Source: Bacteroidota bacterium
GTDB taxonomy: Bacteria; Bacteroidota; Bacteroidia; Chitinophagales; Chitinophagaceae
Length of the DNA stretch: 64,000 nt
NCBI GenBank assembly: GCA_024640255.1
Contig: JAHEFI010000047.1
Location: 80,689-144,688 of the forward strand
Direction: 5' to 3'
Shown here: positions 4,939 to 23,280 of the stretch, piece by piece
Layout: each line of letters opens with the position of its first letter
Numbering within the stretch: the first letter of the stretch is position 1
Notes under the pieces: generated by a model
Databases searched by the model: none
What the model was told of the DNA's origin: nothing
The model's input: the letters and a program-made list of their open reading frames with translations, nothing else
Made by a program: the position numbers and the translations under genes

Positions 4939-4971
4939 GGCTTGTTATTCATGGAATAGCAAGCCTTTTTT
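4939..4971 (+). terminator. Rho-independent terminator
   Basis: GGCTTGTTATTC-atg-GAATAGCAAGCC hairpin followed by TTTTTT. Confidence 0.65.
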
Positions 4972-5593
4972 AATCCAACTCAAACAATCCTAAAGCACTA
5001 GAAGTTTCATAATTGGTGTATCGCAAAGTTGTGTTAATGTTTGAATGGCCAACTAGACGAGAAACTTTGATCAAACTAAGTGAATCGCCATTATCAAACC
5101 CTTTTTTAATTGCTCCAACGACCCAACTTTTTCGAAGTAAGTGTGAAGAGCAATTCCCAATATATCTAATGCCATATTCATTTAAAATACGTTTCAATAA
5201 CCTATTAAAGTTTTGGATTGACATATGTTCAGCTCCTTTCCCTTTTTGAGAGGTGAAAATATAATCATTGGATTTTGGCTTATGAATTTTATTCACCAAT
5301 TGAACTACTTGATAGAGTTTTGTACTCATAATTAGTACCCTTTCTTTTCCTGTTTTCCTCTCAATTCTAATAAATCTATCGCCAGGTTGTAAGCTGCTTA
5401 AATCGCCCCATTTTAAGCCCAGATTGTCAATGACTCTTAAACCAAGTCTGCATCCAATTGAGATAATTAGTAGGGCCAGAGCCTCATTTTTTGACTTAAA
5501 AAGCGAGTATCGATTAATTAGCTTAGTTTCTAATTCTACTATTCTGTCCCATTCAAGGGAGTAAGTTGTGGTTTTTTGGCCTTTTTGACTCAT
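4970..5593 (-). CDS. short tyrosine recombinase/integrase (catalytic-domain sized)
   Basis: 207 aa; 'CRLGLRVIDNLGLKWGDL', 'RKTGKERVLIM', 'SSHLLRKSW', 'LVGHSNINTTLRYTNYE' give R-K-HxxR-H-Y motifs. Confidence 0.85.
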   Translation of the reverse strand: MSQKGQKTTTYSLEWDRIVELETKLINRYSLFKSKNEALALLIISIGCRLGLRVIDNLGLKWGDLSSLQPGDRFIRIERKTGKERVLIMSTKLYQVVQLVNKIHKPKSNDYIFTSQKGKGAEHMSIQNFNRLLKRILNEYGIRYIGNCSSHLLRKSWVVGAIKKGFDNGDSLSLIKVSRLVGHSNINTTLRYTNYETSSALGLFELD

Positions 5594-5748
5594 TTTTTTG
5601 TTTATTTCTGGCTAAAATGAGTGTTTTATGATCAATAAACAAGCAAGAAAAGTTAAAAATTGATCAATTTAGATCTTTTATAAGACATTGATATCCAATG
5701 TAAAAAATGTACACTTTGAGACATTAGTGAATGTTACGATGTATTTTT

Positions 5749-5774
5749 ATTTGTGAAATCACTCTGCACAGAAT
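5749..5774 (+). promoter_or_regulatory. operator-like site upstream of the WYL gene
   Basis: ATTTGTGAAATCACTCTGCACAGAAT; matches the reverse complement of 6822-6847 at 21/26 positions; followed by a TAnnTTTG-like GAATTTTG. Confidence 0.6.
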
Positions 5775-5803: not shown

Positions 5804-6817
5804 ATGTCAGTAAACAAAAATGCTTTAATTAGGTACAAAGTATTGGATTCCTGTTTTCGAAACCATGCTAAGAGGTATTTTATTGAAGATTTAATTGACG
5901 AGTGTTCTAATGTGCTTGCAGAATTGAATTCTAATTCTAATGGAATAAGTAGAAGGCAAATTTTTCAGGACATACTTTTTATGGAAAGTTCAGAAGGATG
6001 GAGTATTGAGTTAGAAAAAAATAGGGTAGGAAAAAGAATCTACTACAGGTATGTTGATCCAAAGTATTCGATTAATAATATGCCGTTAAATGAACTAGAA
6101 ATAAATCATTTAAAATCTGCAATGGATATTCTTTCCCAGTTTAAAGGAATGCCTCAATTTGAGTGGATGAATGAAACATTGCCTAAGCTACAACATAGGA
6201 CTACAAAAGGTTTAAACGAAAAAACAATAATTGAATTTGATTCAAATCAATATTTAAAAGGGATTGAAAATTTAGGAGTGATATATAATGCGATTTTTTA
6301 TAAAAAGGTATTATCAATTAAGTATTTTCCTTTTGAAGCCACTGAGGTATTTGATATTATTATACATCCTTATTATTTAAAACAATTTAATAATAGATGG
6401 TTTTTATATGGATACAATCCTGTTAAAAATAAGTATGATTGGAACTTAGCACTAGATAGGATTAAAAGTATTGAGGAGTTGAATGAACAGTATCAAATAA
6501 ATGATACAATTGATTGGCAAGAATATTTTGAAGATATAGTTGGTGTCACAAAGCCCGAAAATGCAAAAGTTGAAAATGTTGTTTTGCTTTTTAAGGGTAA
6601 AACGTGTCACTATATTGAATCTAAACCTATTCATGGCTCTCAAAAGTTGAAAAGAATAGATAGCGGAACGGTAGAAGTAAATTTAAACGTAGTAATAAAC
6701 TATGAAATAGAACGACTGATTTTATCCTACGCGGATAGTGTAGAAGTATTAAAACCAAAGAGCCTAATAGATTCAATAATTGAAAAAACAAAGCTAGCCT
6801 TATCGCAATATAAATAG
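5804..6817 (+). CDS. WYL-domain transcriptional regulator
   Basis: N-terminal wHTH and 'IIIHPYYLKQFNNRWFLYGYNP' WYL-type signature; the track ORF starts at GTG 5753, but ATG 5804 (MSVNKNALIRYK) is the more likely start. Confidence 0.8.
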   Translation: MSVNKNALIRYKVLDSCFRNHAKRYFIEDLIDECSNVLAELNSNSNGISRRQIFQDILFMESSEGWSIELEKNRVGKRIYYRYVDPKYSINNMPLNELEINHLKSAMDILSQFKGMPQFEWMNETLPKLQHRTTKGLNEKTIIEFDSNQYLKGIENLGVIYNAIFYKKVLSIKYFPFEATEVFDIIIHPYYLKQFNNRWFLYGYNPVKNKYDWNLALDRIKSIEELNEQYQINDTIDWQEYFEDIVGVTKPENAKVENVVLLFKGKTCHYIESKPIHGSQKLKRIDSGTVEVNLNVVINYEIERLILSYADSVEVLKPKSLIDSIIEKTKLALSQYK

Positions 6818-6878: not shown

Positions 6879-9341
6879 ATGAAAAAATTAGTTGAGGCAA
6901 ATATGAACAAAGAGATTGAAAATATTAAAGAAAGAATGTGGATGCCAATTAACATGGTTAGAGGTAAATTGGACCCTTTCGAATACTATTATGTATTGTA
7001 TTTATTTGTGTTACATAAAGAAGGTTTGATAGATAATCCTGTTCCATTTGGTGATCATGAAAATAACAGAGAGTGGGTGTTTAACAGTTTAAGAGAAGAA
7101 TTTTATCCAATCAAGCAGAAACTAATTTCATCTGGGATCTATAAAAGTTTAATTGATTGTATTAAAGAATTAAATTTTCATACTCCTGGCTTTGATTTTG
7201 GAGATGCTTTTGATTCGGTTTTGTATAAACTTTCAAAACAACATGATAGGATTTCAGAAAGTCTCTTGCCTCTAGAAATTAGTCGTTTTGCAATTTCATT
7301 AGCAGGTCCATTATCAGCAAAAACAGTCTATAACCCATTTTCAGGCTTGAATAGTTTTGGGGTTTTATCGAAAAATGTAAAGCATTATATTGGACAAGAG
7401 TATAATCATAATTCATTTATAATTGGACAACTAAGATTAATTGCTCATAATAAACTCTCTTGTTCTACAGTAATTGAATCAGATGTAATTTCTAATTGGC
7501 AACTTAATCAAGGCGGGTTTGATATAATTATTTCTAATCCTCCATTCGGTTTAAGAATTCAAGAGAATGCCCCTGATATGTTTTCAAACAATTGTGAGAG
7601 TTATTTAATCGGAAAGTCATTTAATAGCTTGAGTCAAAATGGCAAAATGATTTTAGTAATATCACAACGGTTTCTTTTTGCAAATGGAGCTGAAAGGCAT
7701 ATTAGAGAGCAACTAGTTGAACGCGGTTGGATTGAAAATATTATTTCAATACCAAGCGGCATTTTGAATAATACCTCTATTTCTTTATGTATTTTAGTAA
7801 TTAACAAAAGTAATTCAAGGGATAATTTAGTTCATTTTGTTGATGCAAATTCCTTTGTAGAAGTTAGGGAAGATCGAAGTAAAGTATTAAATGATAATGC
7901 TTTAATTAATTTTATTGATCAAAAAATTGAGAACGATTATTCTGTATTTGCTTCTACAGAAAAAATAAAATCAAACGATTTTAATCTTTTCCCTACAAGA
8001 TATTTAAGGCATGAAGAAATTATAATCGCAGGGGAGCAGCTTTCTTCAATTTTAGAAATTGCTTCAAGACAACAAAGGGCAGTCAATGATACCTCTGCAA
8101 AATTTGTTAAAATACGAGACCTTAAAGAGGATAGTTTGAATTTTCTGTTGAATGTTGATCAAATTGAAACTACAGATATTCCTAGAAACGGGGTTAAGAT
8201 AGAAGAAGATGTTATTTTAGTTGCAGCAAGGTGGAAGACCTTGAAGCCTACATTTTTTAAATATAATGGCACTCCTATATTTGTTTCTCCTGATATTTTT
8301 TGTTTTAAGTTGAAATCTGAAATTTGCGATTTAGAATATTTAATAAATGAATTAAATCTAGAATCCTTTAATAGACAAGCAGATATATATAGAACAGGAA
8401 TTGTAGTTCCTTCAATTAGGCTCCAGGATTTCTTAAGTTTAAAAATTCCTATACCTTCTTTAGAAATACAAAAAGCTAAGGTAAAAGGGGCAAAGGAGGC
8501 AAATGTTAAAATTGCATTATTAGAAGCCGAGAGTAAAGCTCAAGCATTTGGTTTAGAGAATCTACTATATGAAAATTATGCTTCTGTAAAACATTCATTG
8601 GGCAAGCCATTGCTTAATATTAATTCATCTTTAATTAATATTGAAAAAGCAATTGAAAAGTACAATGTTGATTGGAAAAAAATTAAAGTGAGTGATAGAT
8701 TCGAAATTAATATTGATGATTGTTTCAAAAGTATTTATTCTAATCTTGAATTAATTCATAATATTTTAAGAAATGATAAAGGCTTTGATGTAAAGCAATA
8801 CAAATTGGTTCCTATTAATATTATTGGATTTTTTGAAGAATATAAAAGAGAGATTGTTTCACAGCAAAAATCAAATACCTCAACAACTTTAATTATTGGC
8901 GAAGAGTTGTATTTAGAAAACTCTGAAGTCATTTATGTTAATGCTAATTCAAATTTGTTAAAAGTTGCATTGAATAATATTGTTGATAATGCCATTAAGC
9001 ACGCATTTATAGACAATAATCAAGAGTATAAATTACAAATCAAACTTGGATTAAGTCAAGATGAAATCAGTAAAAATTTCTTTGTAAAAATTGAAGTTTC
9101 AAATAATGGCAAAAGTTTCCCAGATAAATTTGATTTAGAAAAACTAGTAAGAAAAAATTCACAAGCAGGGAATACTGGGAATACAGGAATCGGAGGTTAC
9201 GATTTAAATGAAATTATAAAATATTTTAATCACGGCAGGTCAACGCTAGATTTATTAATCAAAGATGAAAATGAGGAATTTTCAACAACATACATTTTTT
9301 TAATTCCAATAATAATTTCAGATGTTAAAGAAGCAATATAA
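6879..9341 (+). CDS. HsdM-like N6 adenine methyltransferase domain + HsdS-like TRD + histidine kinase (HisKA-like/HATPase) fusion
   Basis: 'FGDAFDSVLYKL', degenerate motif I 'VYNPFSGLNSFG', motif IV 'NPPFG' (7536-7550); HsdS-like 'FLSLKIPIPSLEIQKAK'; H-box-like 'SVKHSLGKPLLNINSSL' (His at 8592); N-box 'NNIVDNAIKHAF' (8973); G-box-like 'NTGIGGYDLNEI'. Confidence 0.75.
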   Translation: MKKLVEANMNKEIENIKERMWMPINMVRGKLDPFEYYYVLYLFVLHKEGLIDNPVPFGDHENNREWVFNSLREEFYPIKQKLISSGIYKSLIDCIKELNFHTPGFDFGDAFDSVLYKLSKQHDRISESLLPLEISRFAISLAGPLSAKTVYNPFSGLNSFGVLSKNVKHYIGQEYNHNSFIIGQLRLIAHNKLSCSTVIESDVISNWQLNQGGFDIIISNPPFGLRIQENAPDMFSNNCESYLIGKSFNSLSQNGKMILVISQRFLFANGAERHIREQLVERGWIENIISIPSGILNNTSISLCILVINKSNSRDNLVHFVDANSFVEVREDRSKVLNDNALINFIDQKIENDYSVFASTEKIKSNDFNLFPTRYLRHEEIIIAGEQLSSILEIASRQQRAVNDTSAKFVKIRDLKEDSLNFLLNVDQIETTDIPRNGVKIEEDVILVAARWKTLKPTFFKYNGTPIFVSPDIFCFKLKSEICDLEYLINELNLESFNRQADIYRTGIVVPSIRLQDFLSLKIPIPSLEIQKAKVKGAKEANVKIALLEAESKAQAFGLENLLYENYASVKHSLGKPLLNINSSLINIEKAIEKYNVDWKKIKVSDRFEINIDDCFKSIYSNLELIHNILRNDKGFDVKQYKLVPINIIGFFEEYKREIVSQQKSNTSTTLIIGEELYLENSEVIYVNANSNLLKVALNNIVDNAIKHAFIDNNQEYKLQIKLGLSQDEISKNFFVKIEVSNNGKSFPDKFDLEKLVRKNSQAGNTGNTGIGGYDLNEIIKYFNHGRSTLDLLIKDENEEFSTTYIFLIPIIISDVKEAI

Positions 9342-10491
9342 AATACTTTGGATTGATGATAAATTCAATGAAATGATAGATTTTCAGATACTCGCTGAAG
9401 GCGAAGGTCTCCTTTTGCAAGGATTTAAATCCTTTGAAGAAGGGTTTGCTGAACTAGAGAAAAGTAATAAAAAATATGATGCAGTTTTATTAGACGGTTT
9501 ATTTTTTGAAAAAAGAGACCAAGAGTCTGGAACGGAAGACGAGATAGCATTAGGAGCTGCAATTGCAAGAATCAATGAGCTTAAAAATAAAAAAAACTAT
9601 CCATGGTTTGTCTTGTCTGGTCAAGATCAATTTACTAAAACAAAAAATTCATTATTAACTGCAAATAAAAAAAGGTGTTTTGACAAAACAAACCCTGCAG
9701 ACATTTTTGAGTTATTCAGTGCAATAAAAATTGAGTCTGATAATGAAAAAGAAACTTCAATAAAACATAAGTATTACAAGGCCTTTGAATTATGTACTTC
9801 AAAATATATTGGAGAGGATAGTGTAAATGGTCTTTTGTATTTACTTATTGGTTTAGAATATCAACAAGAAAATCAAAACTCAGAAGAAAAGTTAAATGCT
9901 ATCAGAAAAATAATAGAAAATATATTTGATGTTTTTTACAAAATTGGCGTTTTACCTCATGAAATTGCACGTTCAAATGGTTCAATCAATAAATCAGGAG
10001 ATTTTTTAGCTGGTTTAAATAAACAATATAAATATAATGAGCAGATATTACATCCTGTTATAGCACTTCACTTAATAAATATTTTAGATCTTACTCAAGA
10101 TGGATCTCATTCAAGAGGTGATTTAAAACTAGGAGTAGATGATTTTATTAAATCCCAAAACACCTCATATCTTTTTAATAGTATAGTTTTTCAATTACTA
10201 GATATAATGATTTGGTGTAAGAATTATTTCAACAATCATCAAGATTATAAATATAATAACAGAATAACTGAATTATTAGAGGTTGACACAACAAGCTTTT
10301 ATGAAGGAATCATTGAACAAGATAGTAATAGAAACTTTTATTGTGGAGAATATATTTTAGGGTATAATCATATAATAAACAATAATTTTAAAATTGGAGA
10401 TAGAATTAAGATTACTGAATCAACTGAAAACACAAATAATAGAACTAATTCGCTTTATCCAAAACATGCTAAAAAATTTATAATATTATGA
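9322..10491 (+). CDS. receiver-domain (REC) protein with uncharacterised C-terminal domain
   Basis: 'ILWIDDK', phosphoacceptor-like 'YDAVLLDGLF' (Asp codon 9493-9495), 'VLSGQD', 'CFDKTNP' (Lys codon 9685-9687); overlaps the upstream kinase gene by 20 bp. Confidence 0.75.
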   Translation: MLKKQYKILWIDDKFNEMIDFQILAEGEGLLLQGFKSFEEGFAELEKSNKKYDAVLLDGLFFEKRDQESGTEDEIALGAAIARINELKNKKNYPWFVLSGQDQFTKTKNSLLTANKKRCFDKTNPADIFELFSAIKIESDNEKETSIKHKYYKAFELCTSKYIGEDSVNGLLYLLIGLEYQQENQNSEEKLNAIRKIIENIFDVFYKIGVLPHEIARSNGSINKSGDFLAGLNKQYKYNEQILHPVIALHLINILDLTQDGSHSRGDLKLGVDDFIKSQNTSYLFNSIVFQLLDIMIWCKNYFNNHQDYKYNNRITELLEVDTTSFYEGIIEQDSNRNFYCGEYILGYNHIINNNFKIGDRIKITESTENTNNRTNSLYPKHAKKFIIL

Positions 10492-10545: not shown

Positions 10546-12111
10546 ATGACAAGAGAACAAGAAAGAGATGAGCTGCACCGCACCATCTGGCAAATAGCAA
10601 ACGACTTACGAGGTAGTGTTGACGGATGGGATTTTAAGTCTTATGTACTTGGGATGCTGTTTTACAGGTTCATTTCAGAAAATCTTACTTCTTATATAAA
10701 TAAGGAAGAGCAACGTACAGGACATAGCAATTTTGACTACGCTTCTATTTCTGACAAAGATGCTGAGTTAGGTAGGGTGGACACAATAAAAGAAAAAGGA
10801 TTTTACATTTTACCTTCAGAATTATTTCTAAATGTTCGCAAGAATGCAAAGACAGACGAAGACTTGAATGAAACATTAAGTCGTGTTTTTAAGAACATCG
10901 AGAACTCTGCAAAAGGAACGGATAGTGAAGATGACCTAAAAGGTTTATTTGATGACATTGATGTAAACAGCAACAAGCTCGGTGCAACCGTAACAAAACG
11001 AAATGAGGTATTAGTAAAAATTATGGATGCCATAGGCGGATTGCAATTCGGTGATTATCAAGAAAACACCAATGACACATTTGGCGACGCATACGAGTTT
11101 TTGATGACTATGTATGCAAGTAATGCAGGTAAATCTGGAGGAGAGTTCTTTACTCCACAAGAAGTATCTGAGCTATTGGCAGAAATTACAGTAGTTGGCA
11201 AAAAGCAAGTAAATAAAGTATATGATCCCGCATGTGGTTCTGGTTCATTACTTTTAAAATTTGCGAAAGTTTTAGGCAAGGATAATGTTAGACAGGGATT
11301 TTATGGACAAGAGGTAAATATAACGACGCATAATTTATGTCGTATCAATATGTTTTTACATGACATAAATTACGAAAAGTTTAATATTGCTCATGGTGAT
11401 ACTTTAACTGATCCAAAACATTGGGATGATGAACCTTTTGATGCAATTGTTTCAAATCCGCCATACTCAATAAAGTGGGAAGGCGATACTAATCCACTTT
11501 TAATTAATGATCCACGCTTCTCTCCTGCCGGGGTATTAGCTCCTAAAAGCAAAGCAGACTTGGCTTTTACCTTACATATGTTGCACTGGCTTTCTACATC
11601 GGGTACCGCAGCCATTGTTGAGTTTCCAGGTGTTTTGTATCGTGGTGGTGCAGAACAAAAAATCCGAAAATATCTAATTGACAACAATTATATAGATGCG
11701 GTAATACAGCTTCCTCCAGATTTATTCTTTGGTACAACTATAGGTACTTGCATTATTGTGTTGAAGAAAAGTAAGAAGGATAACGCGACATTATTTATTG
11801 ATGCTTCTGCAGAGTTTGTAAGAGGAGGAAATAAAAACAAATTAACAGATTCCAACCGCAAGAAAATACTGAATGCTTATATTGAAAGAAAAGACCATGA
11901 CCATTTTGCAAAGTTGGTTTTAAACAAAGACATTTCTGACAATGATTATAATATTGCGGTAAGCAGTTATGTAGAGCAAGAGAATATCACAGAGGAAGTT
12001 GACATTGAAATGCTGAACGCACATATTGCCGAAATAGTAATCAAGCAAAATAAATTGCGAACAGCTATTGATGAAATTATTGCAGATTTAGAAGGAGGTG
12101 CAAATGAGTAA
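10546..12111 (+). CDS. hsdM: type I restriction-modification system, modification subunit
   Basis: 'GEFFTPQEVSELL', 'YDPACGSGSLLLKF', 'IVSNPPYS'. Confidence 0.95.
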   Translation: MTREQERDELHRTIWQIANDLRGSVDGWDFKSYVLGMLFYRFISENLTSYINKEEQRTGHSNFDYASISDKDAELGRVDTIKEKGFYILPSELFLNVRKNAKTDEDLNETLSRVFKNIENSAKGTDSEDDLKGLFDDIDVNSNKLGATVTKRNEVLVKIMDAIGGLQFGDYQENTNDTFGDAYEFLMTMYASNAGKSGGEFFTPQEVSELLAEITVVGKKQVNKVYDPACGSGSLLLKFAKVLGKDNVRQGFYGQEVNITTHNLCRINMFLHDINYEKFNIAHGDTLTDPKHWDDEPFDAIVSNPPYSIKWEGDTNPLLINDPRFSPAGVLAPKSKADLAFTLHMLHWLSTSGTAAIVEFPGVLYRGGAEQKIRKYLIDNNYIDAVIQLPPDLFFGTTIGTCIIVLKKSKKDNATLFIDASAEFVRGGNKNKLTDSNRKKILNAYIERKDHDHFAKLVLNKDISDNDYNIAVSSYVEQENITEEVDIEMLNAHIAEIVIKQNKLRTAIDEIIADLEGGANE

Positions 12112-13312
12112 GATTAATGATTTAATACAGCAATATTGTCCCCAAGGTATAATATTTAAAGAACTTTGGGAAGTAACAATTTGGGATAAAAGATTTAATG
12201 GTGTTGACAAATCAAAACAACTAAAGGTTTCTTCTTATAAGCATGTTTCTTCTGCTATTTTAAAAAGCTTAAAAAAAGAAAGAGGAACTGTAAAATTATT
12301 ATCTACAGGTAAATTTGATGGGTGGACAACTGAAATTGAAGCAGGGAGCAATCTTAATTTTGGAGAAGTCATTACTATTCCATCTGGTGGCACGGCTAAT
12401 ATTAAGTATTATAATGGGAAATTTGTAGACAGTGGAAACATCTTAGCGAAAGCATTTGATAAGACTATAAGTTTAAAGTTTATTTACTATTATCTTTTGT
12501 CAAAAAATGAAATAGTTGAGAGTTTTTTCAGGGGTGCAGGTGTAAAACATCCAAATATGACAGATCTTTTGAAACTTCAAATCCCAATCCCTCTCCTCCC
12601 AATTCAAGAAGAAATCGTAGCTATCTTAGATAAGTTTACAACATTAGAAGCGGAGTTAGAAGCGGAGTTAGAAGCTAGAAAAAAACAATACACTTTTTAT
12701 CGAGATTCTTTGTTATGTTTTGAAGGAAAAGATGTGAAGTGGATGACACTTGGAGAAATTGGTAATGTTTGTATGTGTAAAAGAGTTTTTAAAAATGAAA
12801 CTACTAGCAGTGGGGATATACCATTTTATAAAATTGGAACTTTTGGAAAAGAACCTGATTCTTTCATTTCTAAAGAACTATATCAAGAATATAAAAATAG
12901 ATATTCATTTCCAAAAAAAGGTGATATTTTAATTTCAGCTTCAGGTACAATTGGCAGAACTGTAATTTATAATGGTGAGCCCGCTTATTTTCAAGATAGT
13001 AATATAGTTTGGATAAATAATGATGAATCAATTGTTACAAATAGATTTTTATTTCATTATTATAAAGTTGTGAAATGGCAAACAGATAATGGTGGAATAA
13101 TTTCTAGATTGTATAATGACAATTTAAAAAAAACTAAAATTCCTATTCCAACTTTTTTAGAACAAGAACGAATTGTCAAAATTTTAGATAAATTTGATAT
13201 ATTAGTAAACGACATTTCAATCGGCTTACCAGCTGAAATTAAAACACGCAGAAGGCAAAATGAGTTCTACAGAAATCAATTATTGACCTTTAATTCTGTA
13301 AGCAATGAATAA
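12104..13312 (+). CDS. hsdS: type I restriction-modification system, specificity subunit
   Basis: two TRD halves, each ending in HsdS-type 'IPIPLLPIQEEIVAILDKFTTLEAELEAELEARKKQY' / 'IPIPTFLEQERIVKILDKFD'; start ATG 12104 overlaps the hsdM stop. Confidence 0.92.
   Translation: MSKINDLIQQYCPQGIIFKELWEVTIWDKRFNGVDKSKQLKVSSYKHVSSAILKSLKKERGTVKLLSTGKFDGWTTEIEAGSNLNFGEVITIPSGGTANIKYYNGKFVDSGNILAKAFDKTISLKFIYYYLLSKNEIVESFFRGAGVKHPNMTDLLKLQIPIPLLPIQEEIVAILDKFTTLEAELEAELEARKKQYTFYRDSLLCFEGKDVKWMTLGEIGNVCMCKRVFKNETTSSGDIPFYKIGTFGKEPDSFISKELYQEYKNRYSFPKKGDILISASGTIGRTVIYNGEPAYFQDSNIVWINNDESIVTNRFLFHYYKVVKWQTDNGGIISRLYNDNLKKTKIPIPTFLEQERIVKILDKFDILVNDISIGLPAEIKTRRRQNEFYRNQLLTFNSVSNE
12644..12675 (+). 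repeat. 12-bp tandem repeat (TTAGAAGCGGAG, ~2.7 copies) in the hsdS central conserved region
   Basis: read directly; encodes LEAELEAELEA. Confidence 0.9.
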
Positions 13313-16300
13313 GTATTATATAGTAGCTGAAAGTGCTGAAAGTACAGTCGTTTCTGAATATAAGTCTCCCTACAAAAGAGAAACAAATCACCAGACTGAA
13401 GACCAATTAGAGAAAGCATTCATTGCCTTACTTCAAAGTCAAGCATATGAATATTTAGTTATTAACAGCGAAACTGAACTTATAAATAACCTTCGCCGAC
13501 AGTTAGAGAAATTAAATAACTATACTTTTAGCGATAATGAGTGGAATCGTTTTTTCAAAAGTAAAATTTCAAATCAGAATAGTGGCATTGTTGAAAAAAC
13601 AACGATTATACAAGAAGATTACATTCAAAATTTAGATTGCGATAATGGCTCTATTAAGAATATCAATTTTATAGATAAACTCAATATACATAACAATCAA
13701 CTTCAAGTCTTAAATCAATATGAAGTTGCTGAAGGGAATAGGCCCAATCGTTATGATGTAACAGTTTTAGTAAACGGATTTCCACTAGTTCATATAGAGT
13801 TAAAAAAAAGGGGAATTGACATAAAAGAAGCATTTAATCAGATAAATCGTTATAATAGAGAGTCATTTTGGGCTGGATCAGCACTATTTGAATATGTACA
13901 ACTATTTGTAATCTCTAATGGCACTTTTACCAAATATTATAGTAATACAACAAGAAGTTCACATATCAAAGAGCAGAGTCAATTTGGTCCTAAAAAAGGT
14001 AAACGAACTAGTAATAGTTTTGAATTCACATCATGGTGGGCAGATTCAAATAACAGGCCAATTTTAGACTTAATGGATTTTGGACGTACATTTTTTGCAA
14101 AACATTCCTTATTAAATATCATTTGCAAATACTGTGTATTTACTTCAGATAAATTATTGTTGGTCATGCGACCATATCAAATAGTGGCCACCGAAAAAAT
14201 TTTGAACAAAATTAATGTTGCCAACAATTACAAAAACTTTGGAACTATAGATGCTGGAGGTTATATTTGGCATACTACGGGTAGCGGTAAAACTCTTACC
14301 TCATTTAAAACAGCTCAGTTAGCTAGTAAACTTCCTTTTATAAAGAAAGTTTTGTTTGTAGTAGATAGAAAAGATTTAGACTATCAAACAATGAAGGAGT
14401 ATGATAAATTTGAAAAAGGAGCAGCCAATAGCAATTCGAATACTTCAATTTTAAAAAAACAACTTAGTGATTCAAATGCCAGTATCATAATCACTACAAT
14501 ACAAAAGCTCTCTATTCTAATAAAAAAAGAAAAAAATCATAGCTTATTCAATGAGCCAGTTGTTGTCATTTTTGATGAGTGCCACCGTTCACAATTTGGT
14601 GATATGCACCTAGCTATTACTAGAGCTTTTAAGAAATATTACCTTTTTGGTTTTACCGGTACTCCCATTTTTGCAATTAATGCAAACAGCAGCAACAAGC
14701 CTAGTTTAAAAACAACCGAGCAGGCATTTGGAGATAAGTTGCACACTTATACTATAGTTGATGCCATCAATGATAAAAATGTACTTCCATTTCGTATTGA
14801 TTATGTATCAACCATGAAAGAGCAGGAAAATATCAAAGATGAAAAGGTTTGGGATATTGATAGAGAGAGGGCATTGACAGAACCAAAACGAATTACTAAT
14901 GTTGTAAATTATATTTTGGATCATTTTGACCAAAAGACCAAACGAAACAGTAAATCATACAGCTTCTTGTCACTTAAAAATATTTACGAAGTCGTATCTT
15001 CTAAAGATCGTAACAAAATCAAAGAAATAAGAGTAAAAATTGCTCTTTCAGGCTTCAATTCCATATTTGCAGTAAGTTCCATTGACTTTGCTAAACTTTA
15101 TTATTATGAGTTTAAAAAACAACAACAAACCTTACCTGAAATACAACGTTTAAAAATTGCTACTATTTTCAGCTTTGGTGTAAATGATGAAGAAGATGGA
15201 TTGCCAGATGAAAATTCAGAAGGCACTGAGGGTTTAAGTACATCAGATAGAGATTTTCTCGAAACAGCTATAAGTGATTATAACGAGATTTTCACAACTA
15301 ATTATGATACATCAGCAGATAAATTTCAGAACTATTACAAAGATGTATCATTAAGAATGAAAAATCGAGAAATTGATTTACTTATCGTAGTAAACATGTT
15401 TCTTACTGGTTTTGATGCAACTACTTTAAATACATTATGGGTTGATAAGAACTTGCGACTACACGGATTATTGCAAGCTTATTCAAGAACCAACCGAATA
15501 TTAAATTCTGTAAAAACTTTTGGAAATATTGTTTGCTTCAGAAATCTTGAAAAAGCAACAAATGAAAGTATAGCATTATTTGGAGATAAAGAAGCTGGTG
15601 GAATTGTTCTGTTAAAAACCTTTGATCAATATTACAATGGGTATAAAGATGACAAAAAAGTTACGCCTGGCTATGTGTCGTTAATAGATGAGCTAACAAC
15701 AAAATACCAGTTAGGCGAACCTATTATAGGAGAACAGAAAAAGAAATCCTTTATAAAACTTTATGGAGTGATATTAAAAGCAAGGAATATTCTTTCTGCA
15801 TTTGACGAATTCAAAGGAAAAGAAATTCTGACCGAAAGGGATCTGCAGGACTATCACAGCATATACATTAATCTTTACCATGAATTTCGTAATAAAAAGA
15901 CTGGAGATGTGGAAAATGTTAATGACGACATCGTATTTGAGATGGAGCTGATAAAGCAGGTTGAAATAAATATAGACTACATTATAGAATTGATTAAAAA
16001 ATATCATGAAAGTCATTTCAAAGACAAAGAAATTCATATCGCTATTAATAAAGCTATTGATTCTAGTTTAGAATTAAGGAATAAGAAAGATCTCATAGAA
16101 AAATTCATTCAGTCACTTACCCCTAGCACTGATGTTACAAATGATTGGCAAAGTTTTATTGAGGAGCAAAAGATAGAAGAATTAAATCAAATTATTATCG
16201 AGGAAAATCTTGATAAAGGTGAAACATACAAATTCATGAAAAATGCATTCAGAGATGGCTATATACAAACAACTGGTACTGGATTAGCTAAAATATTACC

Positions 16301-16424
16301 TCCAGTATCAAGGTTTACTCCTAATGGAGAAAGAACCGAAAAAAGAGAAACTGTAATTGAAAAAATAAAAATATTTTTCAATCGATTCTGGGATATTTCT
16401 GGAGAAAAGTCTGATTTAGGTTAA
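13305..16424 (+). CDS. hsdR: type I restriction-modification system, restriction/translocase subunit
   Basis: nuclease-type 'NRYDVTVLVNGFPLVHIELKKRG', Walker A 'WHTTGSGKTLT', 'VVIFDECHRSQFG', 'LFGFTGTPI'. Confidence 0.95.
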   Translation: MNKYYIVAESAESTVVSEYKSPYKRETNHQTEDQLEKAFIALLQSQAYEYLVINSETELINNLRRQLEKLNNYTFSDNEWNRFFKSKISNQNSGIVEKTTIIQEDYIQNLDCDNGSIKNINFIDKLNIHNNQLQVLNQYEVAEGNRPNRYDVTVLVNGFPLVHIELKKRGIDIKEAFNQINRYNRESFWAGSALFEYVQLFVISNGTFTKYYSNTTRSSHIKEQSQFGPKKGKRTSNSFEFTSWWADSNNRPILDLMDFGRTFFAKHSLLNIICKYCVFTSDKLLLVMRPYQIVATEKILNKINVANNYKNFGTIDAGGYIWHTTGSGKTLTSFKTAQLASKLPFIKKVLFVVDRKDLDYQTMKEYDKFEKGAANSNSNTSILKKQLSDSNASIIITTIQKLSILIKKEKNHSLFNEPVVVIFDECHRSQFGDMHLAITRAFKKYYLFGFTGTPIFAINANSSNKPSLKTTEQAFGDKLHTYTIVDAINDKNVLPFRIDYVSTMKEQENIKDEKVWDIDRERALTEPKRITNVVNYILDHFDQKTKRNSKSYSFLSLKNIYEVVSSKDRNKIKEIRVKIALSGFNSIFAVSSIDFAKLYYYEFKKQQQTLPEIQRLKIATIFSFGVNDEEDGLPDENSEGTEGLSTSDRDFLETAISDYNEIFTTNYDTSADKFQNYYKDVSLRMKNREIDLLIVVNMFLTGFDATTLNTLWVDKNLRLHGLLQAYSRTNRILNSVKTFGNIVCFRNLEKATNESIALFGDKEAGGIVLLKTFDQYYNGYKDDKKVTPGYVSLIDELTTKYQLGEPIIGEQKKKSFIKLYGVILKARNILSAFDEFKGKEILTERDLQDYHSIYINLYHEFRNKKTGDVENVNDDIVFEMELIKQVEINIDYIIELIKKYHESHFKDKEIHIAINKAIDSSLELRNKKDLIEKFIQSLTPSTDVTNDWQSFIEEQKIEELNQIIIEENLDKGETYKFMKNAFRDGYIQTTGTGLAKILPPVSRFTPNGERTEKRETVIEKIKIFFNRFWDISGEKSDLG

Positions 16425-16514
16425 AATAATGTTTATTATTTAGTATAAGTGAACATTAATGTAATTTTAAAAGGGATTAGATATGTTTCACATATTTTAA
16501 ACGTTTTAATATAA

Positions 16515-17228
16515 ATGGGCAAAAAAAAATTTCAAAAACAATTATTAAAATTATTATTAGTTATTTCAGTATTTATCATCATTTCTAATGATTTTGTCTT
16601 AGAAGATATTACCGAAATTGTTTCATTTGGACATGAACTAGGTAATGTCCTTTCAAACTTGAGTATGGCATTTATTTCAAGTTATATTTTTTATTATGTT
16701 GTTGTTGTGTTGAAAGAAAGAAAAGATAAATTAAATATTAATATTTCAGTTCATGAATTGACAAATCAATTAGTTGGGAGAGCATATAGCGTTTTTTACA
16801 AATTAGTTGAGGGTGCAGGCATTGAAAATTTTAATTTTGACATCCAGAATATTACTTTAAGTGATTATATTATTTTATGTCAAAAAGTTAATCCTAATCA
16901 GATTTCAACTAATAATTTACTTGGGACACCAGGAAATTTTATAGAAGCTACCTATGGACAATTGATTTATAATAATTCTGTTGCAAATGTTATGATGTTA
17001 TCTGAAAAGATTTTTGTTTATATGCCTTATTTAGATACTGAATTTGTCCATCATATAAACAGACTTCTTAGTTCAACATTTTTCATTATTGCCCCATCGC
17101 TTAATGTAAAGACAAGAAATACTGATTTTACTGCTTATGCCAACCCAATGTTTGAATTTTTAGAATTAGTAAGAGATCTAGATAAGTATAATAGTACAAT
17201 TATTAAAAAATCAATAAATCCGTATTAA
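16515..17228 (+). CDS. hypothetical membrane protein with two N-terminal TM segments
   Basis: 237 aa; hydrophobic stretches 'LLKLLLVISVFIIISNDFVL' and 'MAFISSYIFYYVVVVL'; 90 bp downstream of hsdR, same strand. Confidence 0.6.
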   Translation: MGKKKFQKQLLKLLLVISVFIIISNDFVLEDITEIVSFGHELGNVLSNLSMAFISSYIFYYVVVVLKERKDKLNINISVHELTNQLVGRAYSVFYKLVEGAGIENFNFDIQNITLSDYIILCQKVNPNQISTNNLLGTPGNFIEATYGQLIYNNSVANVMMLSEKIFVYMPYLDTEFVHHINRLLSSTFFIIAPSLNVKTRNTDFTAYANPMFEFLELVRDLDKYNSTIIKKSINPY

Positions 17229-18894: not shown

Positions 18895-19000
18895 CATTGA
18901 TAATCAATATTTTTAATATTTTATCAATCAAATAAATCTATTTTATCAATCAATTTTGACTTTTTTTGATCGATAAAGCATAATTTTATGATCGATAAAA
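18895..19000 (+). promoter_or_regulatory. cluster of four TTTATC(A/G)ATCA sites upstream of fic
   Basis: TTTTATCAATCAA at 18919 and 18941; inverted TTGATCGATAAA at 18966 and TGATCGATAAAA at 18989; 22-bp spacing within each pair. Confidence 0.7.
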
Positions 19001-20055
19001 TAACTATGCCAAAGAAAACTGACAATAGAAGGGATGATATAATCCAATTTATAAGGAATAATCCAAAATGCTCTTCTAAAGAAATACATGATGGATTAGG
19101 ACTTAATATGAGTGTTATTACATTGCGTAGAGTATTGCAAGAATTAAGTACAACTGGTTTAATTAATGCACTGGGAGCATTAAAAAGTAGAAGATATGAA
19201 ATAAGTAGTGCTTATAATATCATAAGACCAATTGATATTGAAAAATATTTTGAAAAGGAGATTGATGATAGAATTATTCAAGATAGATTTAATCATGATT
19301 TGATTACTCAAACACTAAGTAACATTTCAATTTATACAGATTCCGAAATTGATAATTTAAACAAATTACAAGAAAAGTTTAAGTCAAATTCATCTAAATT
19401 AAGTGCAACTGAATATAAAAATGAATTAGAGCGTTTAGCAATAGATTTAAGCTGGAAGTCTTCTCAAATTGAAGGTAATACCTATTCTTTATTGGAAACA
19501 GAAAGACTATTAAAGGATAAAGAAACTGCAGCTGGTAAGACTAAAGATGAAGCAACGATGTTGTTAAACCACAAAGATGCATTAGATTTTATTATTGGTC
19601 ATCCAGATTATATTAATCCATTAACTGTTTCAAGTATAGAAGATATACATAGTATATTGGTTAAGGATTTAGATATTTCAAGAAATGTTAGAAAGGGTAG
19701 GGTAGGTATATCTGGTACAAATTACAAGCCACTTGATAATGAATTTCAAATCAAAGAGGCACTTAAGTCAATGTGTGATATTGTAAATTCAAAAGAAAAT
19801 GTATTTGAAGAAGCGTTATTAGCACTTGTACTAATATCCTATATACAACCATTTTCCGATGGTAATAAAAGGACTGCAAGGATTATTAGTAATGCAATTT
19901 TGATGAATAATCACTACTGTCCAATTTCATTTAGAACTATAGATTCCATCGAGTATAAGAAGGCCATGTTGATATTCTATGAACAAACCAACATCAATCC
20001 TTTTAAAAACATCTTTATTGGACAATTCGAATTTGCTGTGAATACTTACTTTTAA
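18988..20055 (+). CDS. Fic-family protein with N-terminal winged helix; active-site motif QPFSDGNKRTAR
   Basis: inhibitory-type 'SSQIEGN', 'GRVGISGTNYKPL', 'YIQPFSDGNKRTARI'; ATG 19006 (MPKKTDNRRDD) is an alternative start. Confidence 0.85.
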   Translation: MIDKITMPKKTDNRRDDIIQFIRNNPKCSSKEIHDGLGLNMSVITLRRVLQELSTTGLINALGALKSRRYEISSAYNIIRPIDIEKYFEKEIDDRIIQDRFNHDLITQTLSNISIYTDSEIDNLNKLQEKFKSNSSKLSATEYKNELERLAIDLSWKSSQIEGNTYSLLETERLLKDKETAAGKTKDEATMLLNHKDALDFIIGHPDYINPLTVSSIEDIHSILVKDLDISRNVRKGRVGISGTNYKPLDNEFQIKEALKSMCDIVNSKENVFEEALLALVLISYIQPFSDGNKRTARIISNAILMNNHYCPISFRTIDSIEYKKAMLIFYEQTNINPFKNIFIGQFEFAVNTYF

Positions 20056-20484: not shown

Positions 20485-23280
20485 CTAAATTACCTTTTTC
20501 TCTTTAAACTCTTTTGGAGTAATATTAAATTTAGATTTGAATACAGTAGAAAAATAGGCTTGAGAGGAAAACCCAACTTTATAAGCCACTTCTGAGATGG
20601 TAATATTCTCATTTAGTAATAAATACTTTGCCCTTTGTAATCGCACTGATAAAATATATTCATTTATATTATAACCAAGTAACGCCCTTACTTTCCGGTA
20701 TAGTTGAACCCTAGAAACACCGATTTCTCTACAAATATCATCTACAGAAACGTTTTCATTAGACAAGTTTTTCTCAACAATTGATGTAAAGTCATTAATG
20801 AACTTTCTATCTAATTTATTGGGCATATTTGATTTGGATTCACTTGTTAATTCACTAGTGAAATGATTTTTTAATGTAAATCTATTTTTTAAGATAGCAT
20901 TTATTGTTTCTTCTAAGTATTCAAAATTAAAAGGTTTTGTAATGTAAGCATCTGCCTTTGTTTTCATGCCTTCAATCTGATCTTCATTTGCATTTTTTGC
21001 AGTTAGTTGAATAACAGGTATATGTGATGTTTTTACATCATTTTTGATAATTTCAGTTAGTGCAAATCCATTTAATTTAGGCATTATTATATCAGTTATT
21101 ACTAAATCTGGTATATATTCGTAAATCAAATTCAATCCATCCTCTCCATTTTCTGCTGTAATAATTTCGTAATTAACATTTAGTTTATTTTTTAAGAATT
21201 CTCTTAAATCAACGTTATCCTCTATTAAAATAATTGTGTATTCAGCATTTGATATGGAGTTATTATTTTCAATTTCAATTGGAATAAAATCATTTATGTA
21301 CAATCCAGATATCGACTTATCTAATGTATTAGCAGTATTACTGTTTTGTTCATCTAATGGAATTGGTACTTCTTTAATTATTGGCAAAGTAATTATAAAC
21401 TCAGTGCCTAAACCTTTTTTGCTATTTATTTGAATCGTCCCATTAAGTAAATGAATTAATTCCTTTGATAATGATAGTCCAATACCTGTACCTTGAAGCG
21501 TACTGCTATGTCCTTGGTAAAATATATCAAAAGCATGTTGAGCCTCTTCCTCGGTCATGCCAATTCCATTGTCAATTACTCTTATTGTAGCTGTATTGTC
21601 TTTAATGTTATTTTCTACAATGATCGAGATATTTCCATATTCTTCTGTAAATTTAAACGCATTTGAAAGTATATTAAAAAGTACTTTGTCTAGCATTTCT
21701 AAGTCGGTGGAAATATTAAAAGGTTCAGCTTTAAATTTTGTATTGTAAACTATATTCTTCTTTTTTGCAAGATTATTAAAGTTAAAAGCAATTTCAGAAA
21801 TAAAGTGTTGTAAGTCAAAAGTTGAAATTTTTAGATTCATCTTACCTTCTTCAATTTTCCTAAAGTCCATCAATTGATTAATAAGTCTTAATAATCGATT
21901 TGCATTCCTTTCTATTAATTCTAGATTTCCTTTAAGCGTGAAGTGTAATTTTGATGATTTTAGAGTATCTTCTAAAGGAGCCATTATCAATGTTAATGGA
22001 GTTCTTAGTTCGTGAGATATGTTTGTAAAGAAATTGAATTTTGCATCTGAAGCTTCTTTAAGTTTTTCGATTAAAATTTCAAGATTATTTTTTTGCTTTA
22101 TTATCTCATTATTTTGATTCTCAATTTTAATTCTAATTTTTTTATTTTCATTCAAATAAAATAACAATACTCCACCTAAAATAATCATTAACGCTAAAGT
22201 TATTGAGATTGCTAAAATTATATTTGTTTGATTTTTTGTAATTTTTATTTGTTGGTTAATTTTTTCTTGTCGCTTATCTATATCAATTTGTTGAGAATTT
22301 ATCTTTGTGCTTTGTTGAAATAAGGTATTTACATTAGACGAATCAATAACCGTTTCCTTTAGCAGGTTGATCTTAGCGAATGGTTTTTTATTTAAAATGT
22401 CTAAAGCTGTTAGTATCGCTTCTTGCCCGCCTGTAGGGTAGGTTACTGTTGCAGTTAATTGTTTTTTATCAACCATATCCATGCCTAAACCTGGATTTGG
22501 CAAACCGTCCACACCAATGATTTTAAGTTTAGGATTTCCACCAATTTTTTTGTTGATTTCATAAATATGTTTAGCAATAAAATCAGTATGTGCAAATACA
22601 ATGTCAATGTCTTTATGTTTTGATAGTACATTAATTAGTTCCTTTTCGTAATCAACTTGATGATCTTCTAATTCTTTTATTATTTTGATCTCTTTTTCTT
22701 GAGCAATAAAATCTATAAATCCTTTTTCTCTATCTATAAATGGAGAAGCGTTTGAGATTCCCTTTATTACCAAAACATTTCCCTTCTTTTTTAATAAATT
22801 AATGGCATATTTAGCTGCAATTTTTCCAATCTCATAGTTAGATCCGCCAATAAACGAGGTATAATTTTCCGAATTTATCCTTCTATCTATCAGAACTACA
22901 GGAATTCCAGATTGATATACTTTCTCTAAAATTGGAGTTAATGGAATTGAAGCGATTGGGCAAACAATTAATAGATCTACCTTAGCTTTTACTAGCTCTT
23001 CAATTTGAGCAATTTGTTTATTTGCATTTTCACCTGCATCTTTTTTTATGAATTCAATATTATCGTGAAATGAGACTTCTCTTTTCATTTCTGAATTCAT
23101 TGTTTTTCTCCAATCATCATCAGATTGAACTTGTGAGAAGCCAATTTTGAATTTATGTTCTTCATTTTCTGTCCCATTGCATCCTAAACCAGCAATACAT
23201 ATATATAATAAAATAATTATATAAAATAATGAACTAACAAGTTCAGTCCTGCTTTTCAAATTTTTTATGCCTTTATTCAT
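20485..23280 (-). CDS. hybrid two-component system (HTCS): periplasmic sugar-binding sensor, histidine kinase, receiver, AraC HTH
   Basis: Peripla_BP-like N-terminus 'IGFSQVQSDDDWRKTMNSEM', 'NISHELRTPLTLI', 'PDLVITDIIMPKLNG', C-terminal AraC HTH; divergent from a fructan PUL. Confidence 0.93.
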   Translation of the reverse strand: MNKGIKNLKSRTELVSSLFYIIILLYICIAGLGCNGTENEEHKFKIGFSQVQSDDDWRKTMNSEMKREVSFHDNIEFIKKDAGENANKQIAQIEELVKAKVDLLIVCPIASIPLTPILEKVYQSGIPVVLIDRRINSENYTSFIGGSNYEIGKIAAKYAINLLKKKGNVLVIKGISNASPFIDREKGFIDFIAQEKEIKIIKELEDHQVDYEKELINVLSKHKDIDIVFAHTDFIAKHIYEINKKIGGNPKLKIIGVDGLPNPGLGMDMVDKKQLTATVTYPTGGQEAILTALDILNKKPFAKINLLKETVIDSSNVNTLFQQSTKINSQQIDIDKRQEKINQQIKITKNQTNIILAISITLALMIILGGVLLFYLNENKKIRIKIENQNNEIIKQKNNLEILIEKLKEASDAKFNFFTNISHELRTPLTLIMAPLEDTLKSSKLHFTLKGNLELIERNANRLLRLINQLMDFRKIEEGKMNLKISTFDLQHFISEIAFNFNNLAKKKNIVYNTKFKAEPFNISTDLEMLDKVLFNILSNAFKFTEEYGNISIIVENNIKDNTATIRVIDNGIGMTEEEAQHAFDIFYQGHSSTLQGTGIGLSLSKELIHLLNGTIQINSKKGLGTEFIITLPIIKEVPIPLDEQNSNTANTLDKSISGLYINDFIPIEIENNNSISNAEYTIILIEDNVDLREFLKNKLNVNYEIITAENGEDGLNLIYEYIPDLVITDIIMPKLNGFALTEIIKNDVKTSHIPVIQLTAKNANEDQIEGMKTKADAYITKPFNFEYLEETINAILKNRFTLKNHFTSELTSESKSNMPNKLDRKFINDFTSIVEKNLSNENVSVDDICREIGVSRVQLYRKVRALLGYNINEYILSVRLQRAKYLLLNENITISEVAYKVGFSSQAYFSTVFKSKFNITPKEFKEKKVI

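Follow-up and report, generated by a model that had tools for sequence, protein, structure and literature searches.

Histidine kinases carrying an HsdM-like methyltransferase and a target-recognition domain point to a possible exchangeable switch controlling the DNA-cutting defences of Bacteroidota

Control of DNA-restriction defences, or a back-up to them, is the probable role of the gene pair described here, which would act as a portable two-component system in the cytosol; this reading is assigned a probability of roughly 55%. The pair lies on the forward strand of the window, the whole 64,000-nucleotide stretch of DNA that was analysed, and couples a histidine kinase whose input region resembles a type I modification enzyme to a receiver protein. 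The analysis suggests that many different DNA-cutting defence systems across Bacteroidota are headed by such a switch. What governs restriction in the course of infection, and when it first enters a new host, is still to be explained, and phosphorelay control has hardly been considered so far. A sensor assembled from the DNA-reading parts of a restriction enzyme itself, and swapped among unrelated systems, would make that control addressable through point mutants of H572 in the kinase and D58 in the receiver.

Architecture and signalling residues of the sensor-receiver pair

The sensor is a single open reading frame of 820 aa (6879..9341) and overlaps by 20 bp that of the 389-aa receiver (9322..10491), coordinates identical to those of the preliminary description, which had read the sensor as an HsdM-like methyltransferase followed by a target-recognition domain (TRD) and a kinase. 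Pfam, a family profile and an AlphaFold model agree on this order. The HsdM-like N6-adenine methyltransferase domain covers residues 107-380 (7197..8018; Pfam N6_Mtase, 3e-33) and includes motif IV, NPPF, at 7536-7547; the HsdS-like TRD covers residues 440-538 (8196..8492; Methylase_S, 9e-6); and the GHKL/HATPase_c ATP-binding domain covers residues 691-810 (8949..9308; 2e-6), with all three matches exceeding the Pfam gathering cut-offs. The codon of H572, the predicted phospho-accepting histidine, lies between the last two domains at 8592..8594. The profile built from 46 relatives matches the HsdM structure 3lkd (EcoR124II M), the HsdS chains 5ybb_D and 3okg, and histidine kinases (4i5s, YycG), each over the expected segment.

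The AlphaFold model of the sensor (pLDDT 83) matches HsdM structures in a fold search, and its best structural matches include the Ocr-bound type I methyltransferase 7eew and EcoR124I with Ocr/ArdA. One long helix (residues 528-593) spans the end of the TRD through H572, and no transmembrane segment is apparent in the model, as had been proposed. By Pfam, the window sensor carries a single TRD in one chain with its methyltransferase, with no separate two-TRD HsdS partner arrangement, and a single GHKL domain, C-terminal in the window copy and in 46 kinases, HATPase_c being detected in 45 of the 46. Because the same architecture recurs across dozens of genomes, an assembly artefact is ruled out as the origin of the fused C-terminus.

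The receiver protein comprises a receiver (REC) domain (9322..9741) with the D58 codon at 9493-9495, a helical domain (9742..10257) and a C-terminal OB/cold-shock-like domain (10270..10485). A single-sequence Pfam search of the window receiver gives no REC match; its AlphaFold model (pLDDT 90.6) matches CheY/PhoP receivers with a TM-score of up to 0.78 on the target, which supports the receiver-domain gene that had been described next to the kinase. The helical domain shows a HEPN-like pattern, which is not proven: comparison with DUF4145-like HEPN by hhalign places the histidine columns in register at a non-significant probability of 1% (P 0.05), and none of 49 receivers has a HEPN match in Pfam. 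The C-terminal domain matches S1CSD-TOTE-2 in 20 of 49 homologues and OB_RNB in 17 of 49, gives weak cold-shock matches, and is lacking in about 10 of 51 homologues, judging by receiver length. No DNA-binding output is recognisable in the receiver. Stand-alone proteins of about 80-100 aa that resemble only this C-terminal OB-like domain occur at five loci (L010-L013 and L015), and at L053 a 968-aa protein with an N-terminal cold-shock domain, perhaps TOTE-like, is encoded at 13962-16865, downstream of a cassette without restriction genes.

Alignment of the family reveals that the predicted signalling residues are fixed in both proteins. H572, N700, N704, N742, G744, G770 and G772 are invariant in all 48 kinases, while the acidic pair D12 and D13, D58 and K122 are invariant in all 51 receivers, as are R195 and H263 of the helical domain. 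The H-box histidine, N and G boxes, acidic pair, phospho-aspartate and lysine picked out in the preliminary description are thus upheld, and neither the predicted folds, nor the recurrence of the fusion, nor the conservation of these residues contradicts its reading. Invariance of H572, the N and G boxes, the acidic pair, D58 and K122 is strong evidence, though not proof, of selection on phosphotransfer.

Genomic setting and exchange among restriction systems

In the window, the cassette heads a complete type I restriction-modification operon in the order WYL regulator, kinase, receiver, hsdM, hsdS, hsdR. The WYL/WCX-domain transcription regulator is encoded at 5804..6817 (Pfam WYL, 6e-9; WCX, 7e-11), its reading frame having been called from a GTG at 5753, with homologues suggesting a start near 5804. 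HsdM follows the receiver at 10546..12111 (N6_Mtase, 7e-116; HsdM_N, 2e-22), then HsdS with two TRDs at 12098..13312 (Methylase_S, 3e-49) and HsdR at 13305..16424 (HSDR_N, SWI2_SNF2 and EcoR124_C). The source genome holds one HsdM_N-type HsdM, that of this operon, and one copy of the receiver. Neither the WYL gene nor the hsdMSR operon figured in the preliminary description. Upstream of the WYL gene, two palindromic stretches with TGATCA (5622-5679) form a candidate operator, and a short tyrosine recombinase of 207 aa is encoded just ahead of the operon on the reverse strand (4970-5593), which suggests a mobile element or the edge of an island. Past the restriction operon lie a Fic-domain protein (18988-20055) and, on the reverse strand at 20485-23280, an apparently ordinary hybrid two-component system unrelated to the cassette, in which a periplasmic binding domain, kinase, receiver and AraC are discernible by eye.

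A single scan of one genome collection, with the closer set of members as query since the most divergent ones gave no usable pattern, yielded 48 loci. These belong almost throughout to Bacteroidota, with one spirochaete MAG and two Aliifodinibius in addition. Within the class, about 11 of 388 genomes carry the cassette, once five hits confined to the small C-terminal domain are set aside; within the phylum, 13 of 396 do. The kinase adjoins and precedes the receiver in all 46 assessable loci, with a median gap of 1 nt and a co-directional next gene in 46 of 47, and in 29 of the 46 the gene directly before the kinase encodes a WYL protein. The neighbourhood survey that the preliminary description had called for finds hsdM and hsdS nearby in 35 of 46 loci. 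Two or three of the other 11 end at contig ends; about eight have some downstream sequence in which an hsdM-hsdS pair is missing, and the cassette is therefore not confined to type I restriction. A YprA-type DEAD/MZB helicase, GmrSD, a PLD protein or a DEAD/ResIII helicase is encoded near or next to the cassette at other loci.

Several copies lie on elements capable of transfer or close to their genes. A mobilizable Myroides plasmid carries the same gene order with two extra genes ahead of hsdR. The gut contig MT835483, deposited as a phage, has the same order at low identity in a divergent cassette that adjoins an apparent conjugation coupling gene, and to us it looks like an integrative conjugative element. 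Phage-like genes precede the cassette in Rufibacter roseus (L019/L021), a locus that IMG/VR also includes, and this copy is probably prophage-borne. Searches of viral contigs with the TRD-kinase alignment gave no match, nor did searches of plasmids for the divergent receivers L014 and L016. A decayed cassette, with WYL gene, kinase and receiver all interrupted by stops, was observed in one MAG (L041, 6325-10973).

Comparison of closely related sensors with their neighbours discloses how loosely the two are associated. Among close pairs, defined by at least 55% identity in the ATP-binding domain, receiver domains average 73% identity and sensor TRDs 57%, whereas the accompanying HsdM and HsdS proteins average 32% and 21.5%, about the same as over all pairs. 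The 15 members of a single sensor clade accompany HsdM proteins from most of the nine clusters that form at 40% identity, and near-identical sensors are found with unrelated restriction systems. The converse is seen between the window and locus L032, where HsdM is 92% and HsdR 83% identical and sensor and receiver are 32% identical. On these sequence comparisons, the sensor module and the restriction system are exchanged independently. Mantel tests find sensor-HsdM co-evolution essentially absent: there is almost no co-variation, and a correlation at the N-terminus (r 0.15, P 0.01) is too weak to build on. This fits portability but also mere co-residence in defence islands. The sensor retains a conserved TRD even where the HsdS and HsdM encoded next to it are wholly different, which makes it unlikely that the sensor recognises the site targeted by the adjacent enzyme.

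The preliminary description had inferred that a soluble two-component pair reads DNA sequence or methylation state. Its architecture, the soluble pairing and the conserved phospho-residues stand; the simple form of DNA reading does not fare as well, given this constancy of the TRD and the erosion of motif IV set out below.

Proposed mechanism and competing explanations

The methyltransferase domain of the sensor is degenerating across the family and is probably a reader rather than an enzyme, because motif IV decays within the family and is intact in the neighbouring HsdM proteins. The canonical form, (N/D/S)PP(F/Y/W), is present in 28 of 48 sensors, against NPP[FY] in 37 of 37 neighbouring HsdM; HPPF, TPPF, APPF/APPL, NPPL, NAPF and RLPI are among the forms found in the remaining 20. 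Motif I is altered to NPFAG and conserved as such, and the acidic residue of motif II, E174, is kept in 95% of sensors. The window copy may still methylate, since it retains NPPF. Variation among close sensors is greatest at the N-terminus and at residues ~200-320, and in one close pair both dN and dS jump within the variable segment; this joint rise of synonymous and non-synonymous divergence is a sign that the segment arose by segmental recombination.

From these features we infer a dimeric clamp, its ligand, a phosphotransfer step, an output and a direction of control. The sensor would probably be a homodimer joined through its kinase helices, whose two HsdM-TRD arms could make up a clamp similar to the HsdM2S core found in type I enzymes; the kinase dimer would replace the HsdS scaffold, a role suggested by the long helix that extends out of the TRD and past H572. 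The clamp would be engaged by DNA in some specific state, or by another occupant of the DNA channel, and this would alter the helix and switch the kinase, which would then phosphorylate D58 of the receiver. With no DNA-binding output recognisable in it, the receiver may use its helical and OB domains to contact protein or RNA and so influence the adjacent restriction enzyme or the cell, while the WYL protein would set transcription. Candidate signals are the state of the DNA, an anti-restriction protein or SAM status, and candidate outputs are the control of restriction or a back-up effector. More tentatively, and at somewhat less than even odds, these histidine kinases may be immune sensors of a new, intracellular class, in which a repurposed HsdM-TRD clamp with expendable catalysis would monitor DNA or anti-restriction proteins and the phosphorelay would govern any restriction system that travels with the kinase.

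An explanation that shares much of this evidence, considered unlikely, is that the methyltransferase-TRD arms act as a decoy or guard, mimicking HsdM2S in order to detect anti-restriction factors such as the DNA mimics Ocr and ArdA or SAM depletion, with the receiver as a back-up effector. Decay of the catalytic motif while the fold and E174 persist, diversification of the N-terminus and residues ~200-320, as expected for a variable ligand and with recombination indicated in one pair, the failure of the sensor to track HsdS and the Ocr- and ArdA-bound structures among its best matches are all consistent with it, and a comparable logic is known from PrrC with EcoprrI and PARIS with Ocr (PMC12707154). 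However, the receiver would be at most a putative toxin, its HEPN comparison is non-significant, and a simple guard needs no REC output.

Decidedly less probable is a methylation reader serving establishment or restriction alleviation, which would report unmethylated host sites and restrain HsdR when the operon enters a new cell. HsdM-derived modules distinguish the methylation states of their site, the cassette heads restriction-modification operons on a mobilizable plasmid and probably on other mobile elements, and the window copy keeps NPPF. Against this, a TRD that is conserved while HsdS is fully changed cannot, as a rule, share its recognition site with the enzyme to be guarded against.

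It is very improbable that the sensor is an extra working methyltransferase subunit whose activity the fused kinase regulates: the 28 canonical copies, that of the window included, would allow it, but 20 of 48 members have lost a motif that every neighbouring HsdM preserves. A MORC-like GHKL ATPase that performs conformational work rather than phosphotransfer beside a receiver-like protein is scarcely credible, for although paraMORC-type GHKL ATPases do occur next to restriction-modification systems (PMC2292703, PMC3710099), the H-box histidine and all REC catalytic residues are invariant and the GHKL homology of the sensor points to histidine kinases.

Relation to known systems

For the portable two-component module, the nearest precedent is the HEF_HK (PF19191)/Response_reg_2 (PF19192) pair, a two-component-like pair beside restriction-modification genes (Bellieny-Rabelo 2021, PMC8011034) that had not entered the preliminary description; by sequence profile it is nevertheless a different family. 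Both are soluble, with adjacent kinase-like and receiver-like genes by restriction-modification genes and conserved phospho-residues. The input of HEF_HK is a paraMORC HATPase_c_3 domain, mainly with type II C5 restriction-modification, whereas that of the window sensor is HsdM-TRD, mainly with type I. Profile searches give no PF19191 or PF19192 match at the window and list none among 49 receivers and 46 kinases, ruling out membership of that family, and Pfam finds no N-terminal HATPase_c_3 (paraMORC) domain in the sensor family.

A fusion of HsdM-TRD, or of HsdM, with a histidine kinase was not found in any report among the open-access papers searched, and the terms 'histidine kinase' and 'two-component' occur nowhere in a broad 2025 review of restriction-modification (PMC12707154). 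In PADLOC the sensor falls under two models, MTase_I and Specificity_I, and the window receiver under none; a few relatives weakly match its unnamed candidate PDC-M16B. The module would join two-component signalling to bacterial innate immunity, in a form that a current defence catalogue thus divides into 'MTase_I', 'Specificity_I' and an unknown.

The type I HsdM/HsdS proteins, including the intact Vibrio methyltransferase with Ocr (7eew), share the HsdM fold and TRD with the N-terminal two thirds of the sensor, which differs from them in its appended histidine kinase, its unmaintained catalytic motif and its one TRD per chain. Detocs, a three-gene defensive two-component system whose best-described effector is a PNP cleaving ATP, resembles the window pair in its two-component logic and acts in phage defence (PMC11249213). 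PADLOC, which may lack a Detocs model, returned no Detocs-like match. We know of no methyltransferase or TRD input in Detocs. PrrC-EcoprrI and PARIS keep anti-restriction under surveillance (reviewed in PMC12707154) by means of extra genes that respond to inhibited restriction, with ATPase/nuclease effectors and no phosphorelay. BrxR/CapW-type WYL regulators are encoded at the head of defence operons (PMC12255303); the predicted WYL regulator of the window likewise heads its operon and, unlike them, is one gene of a kinase-receiver cassette.
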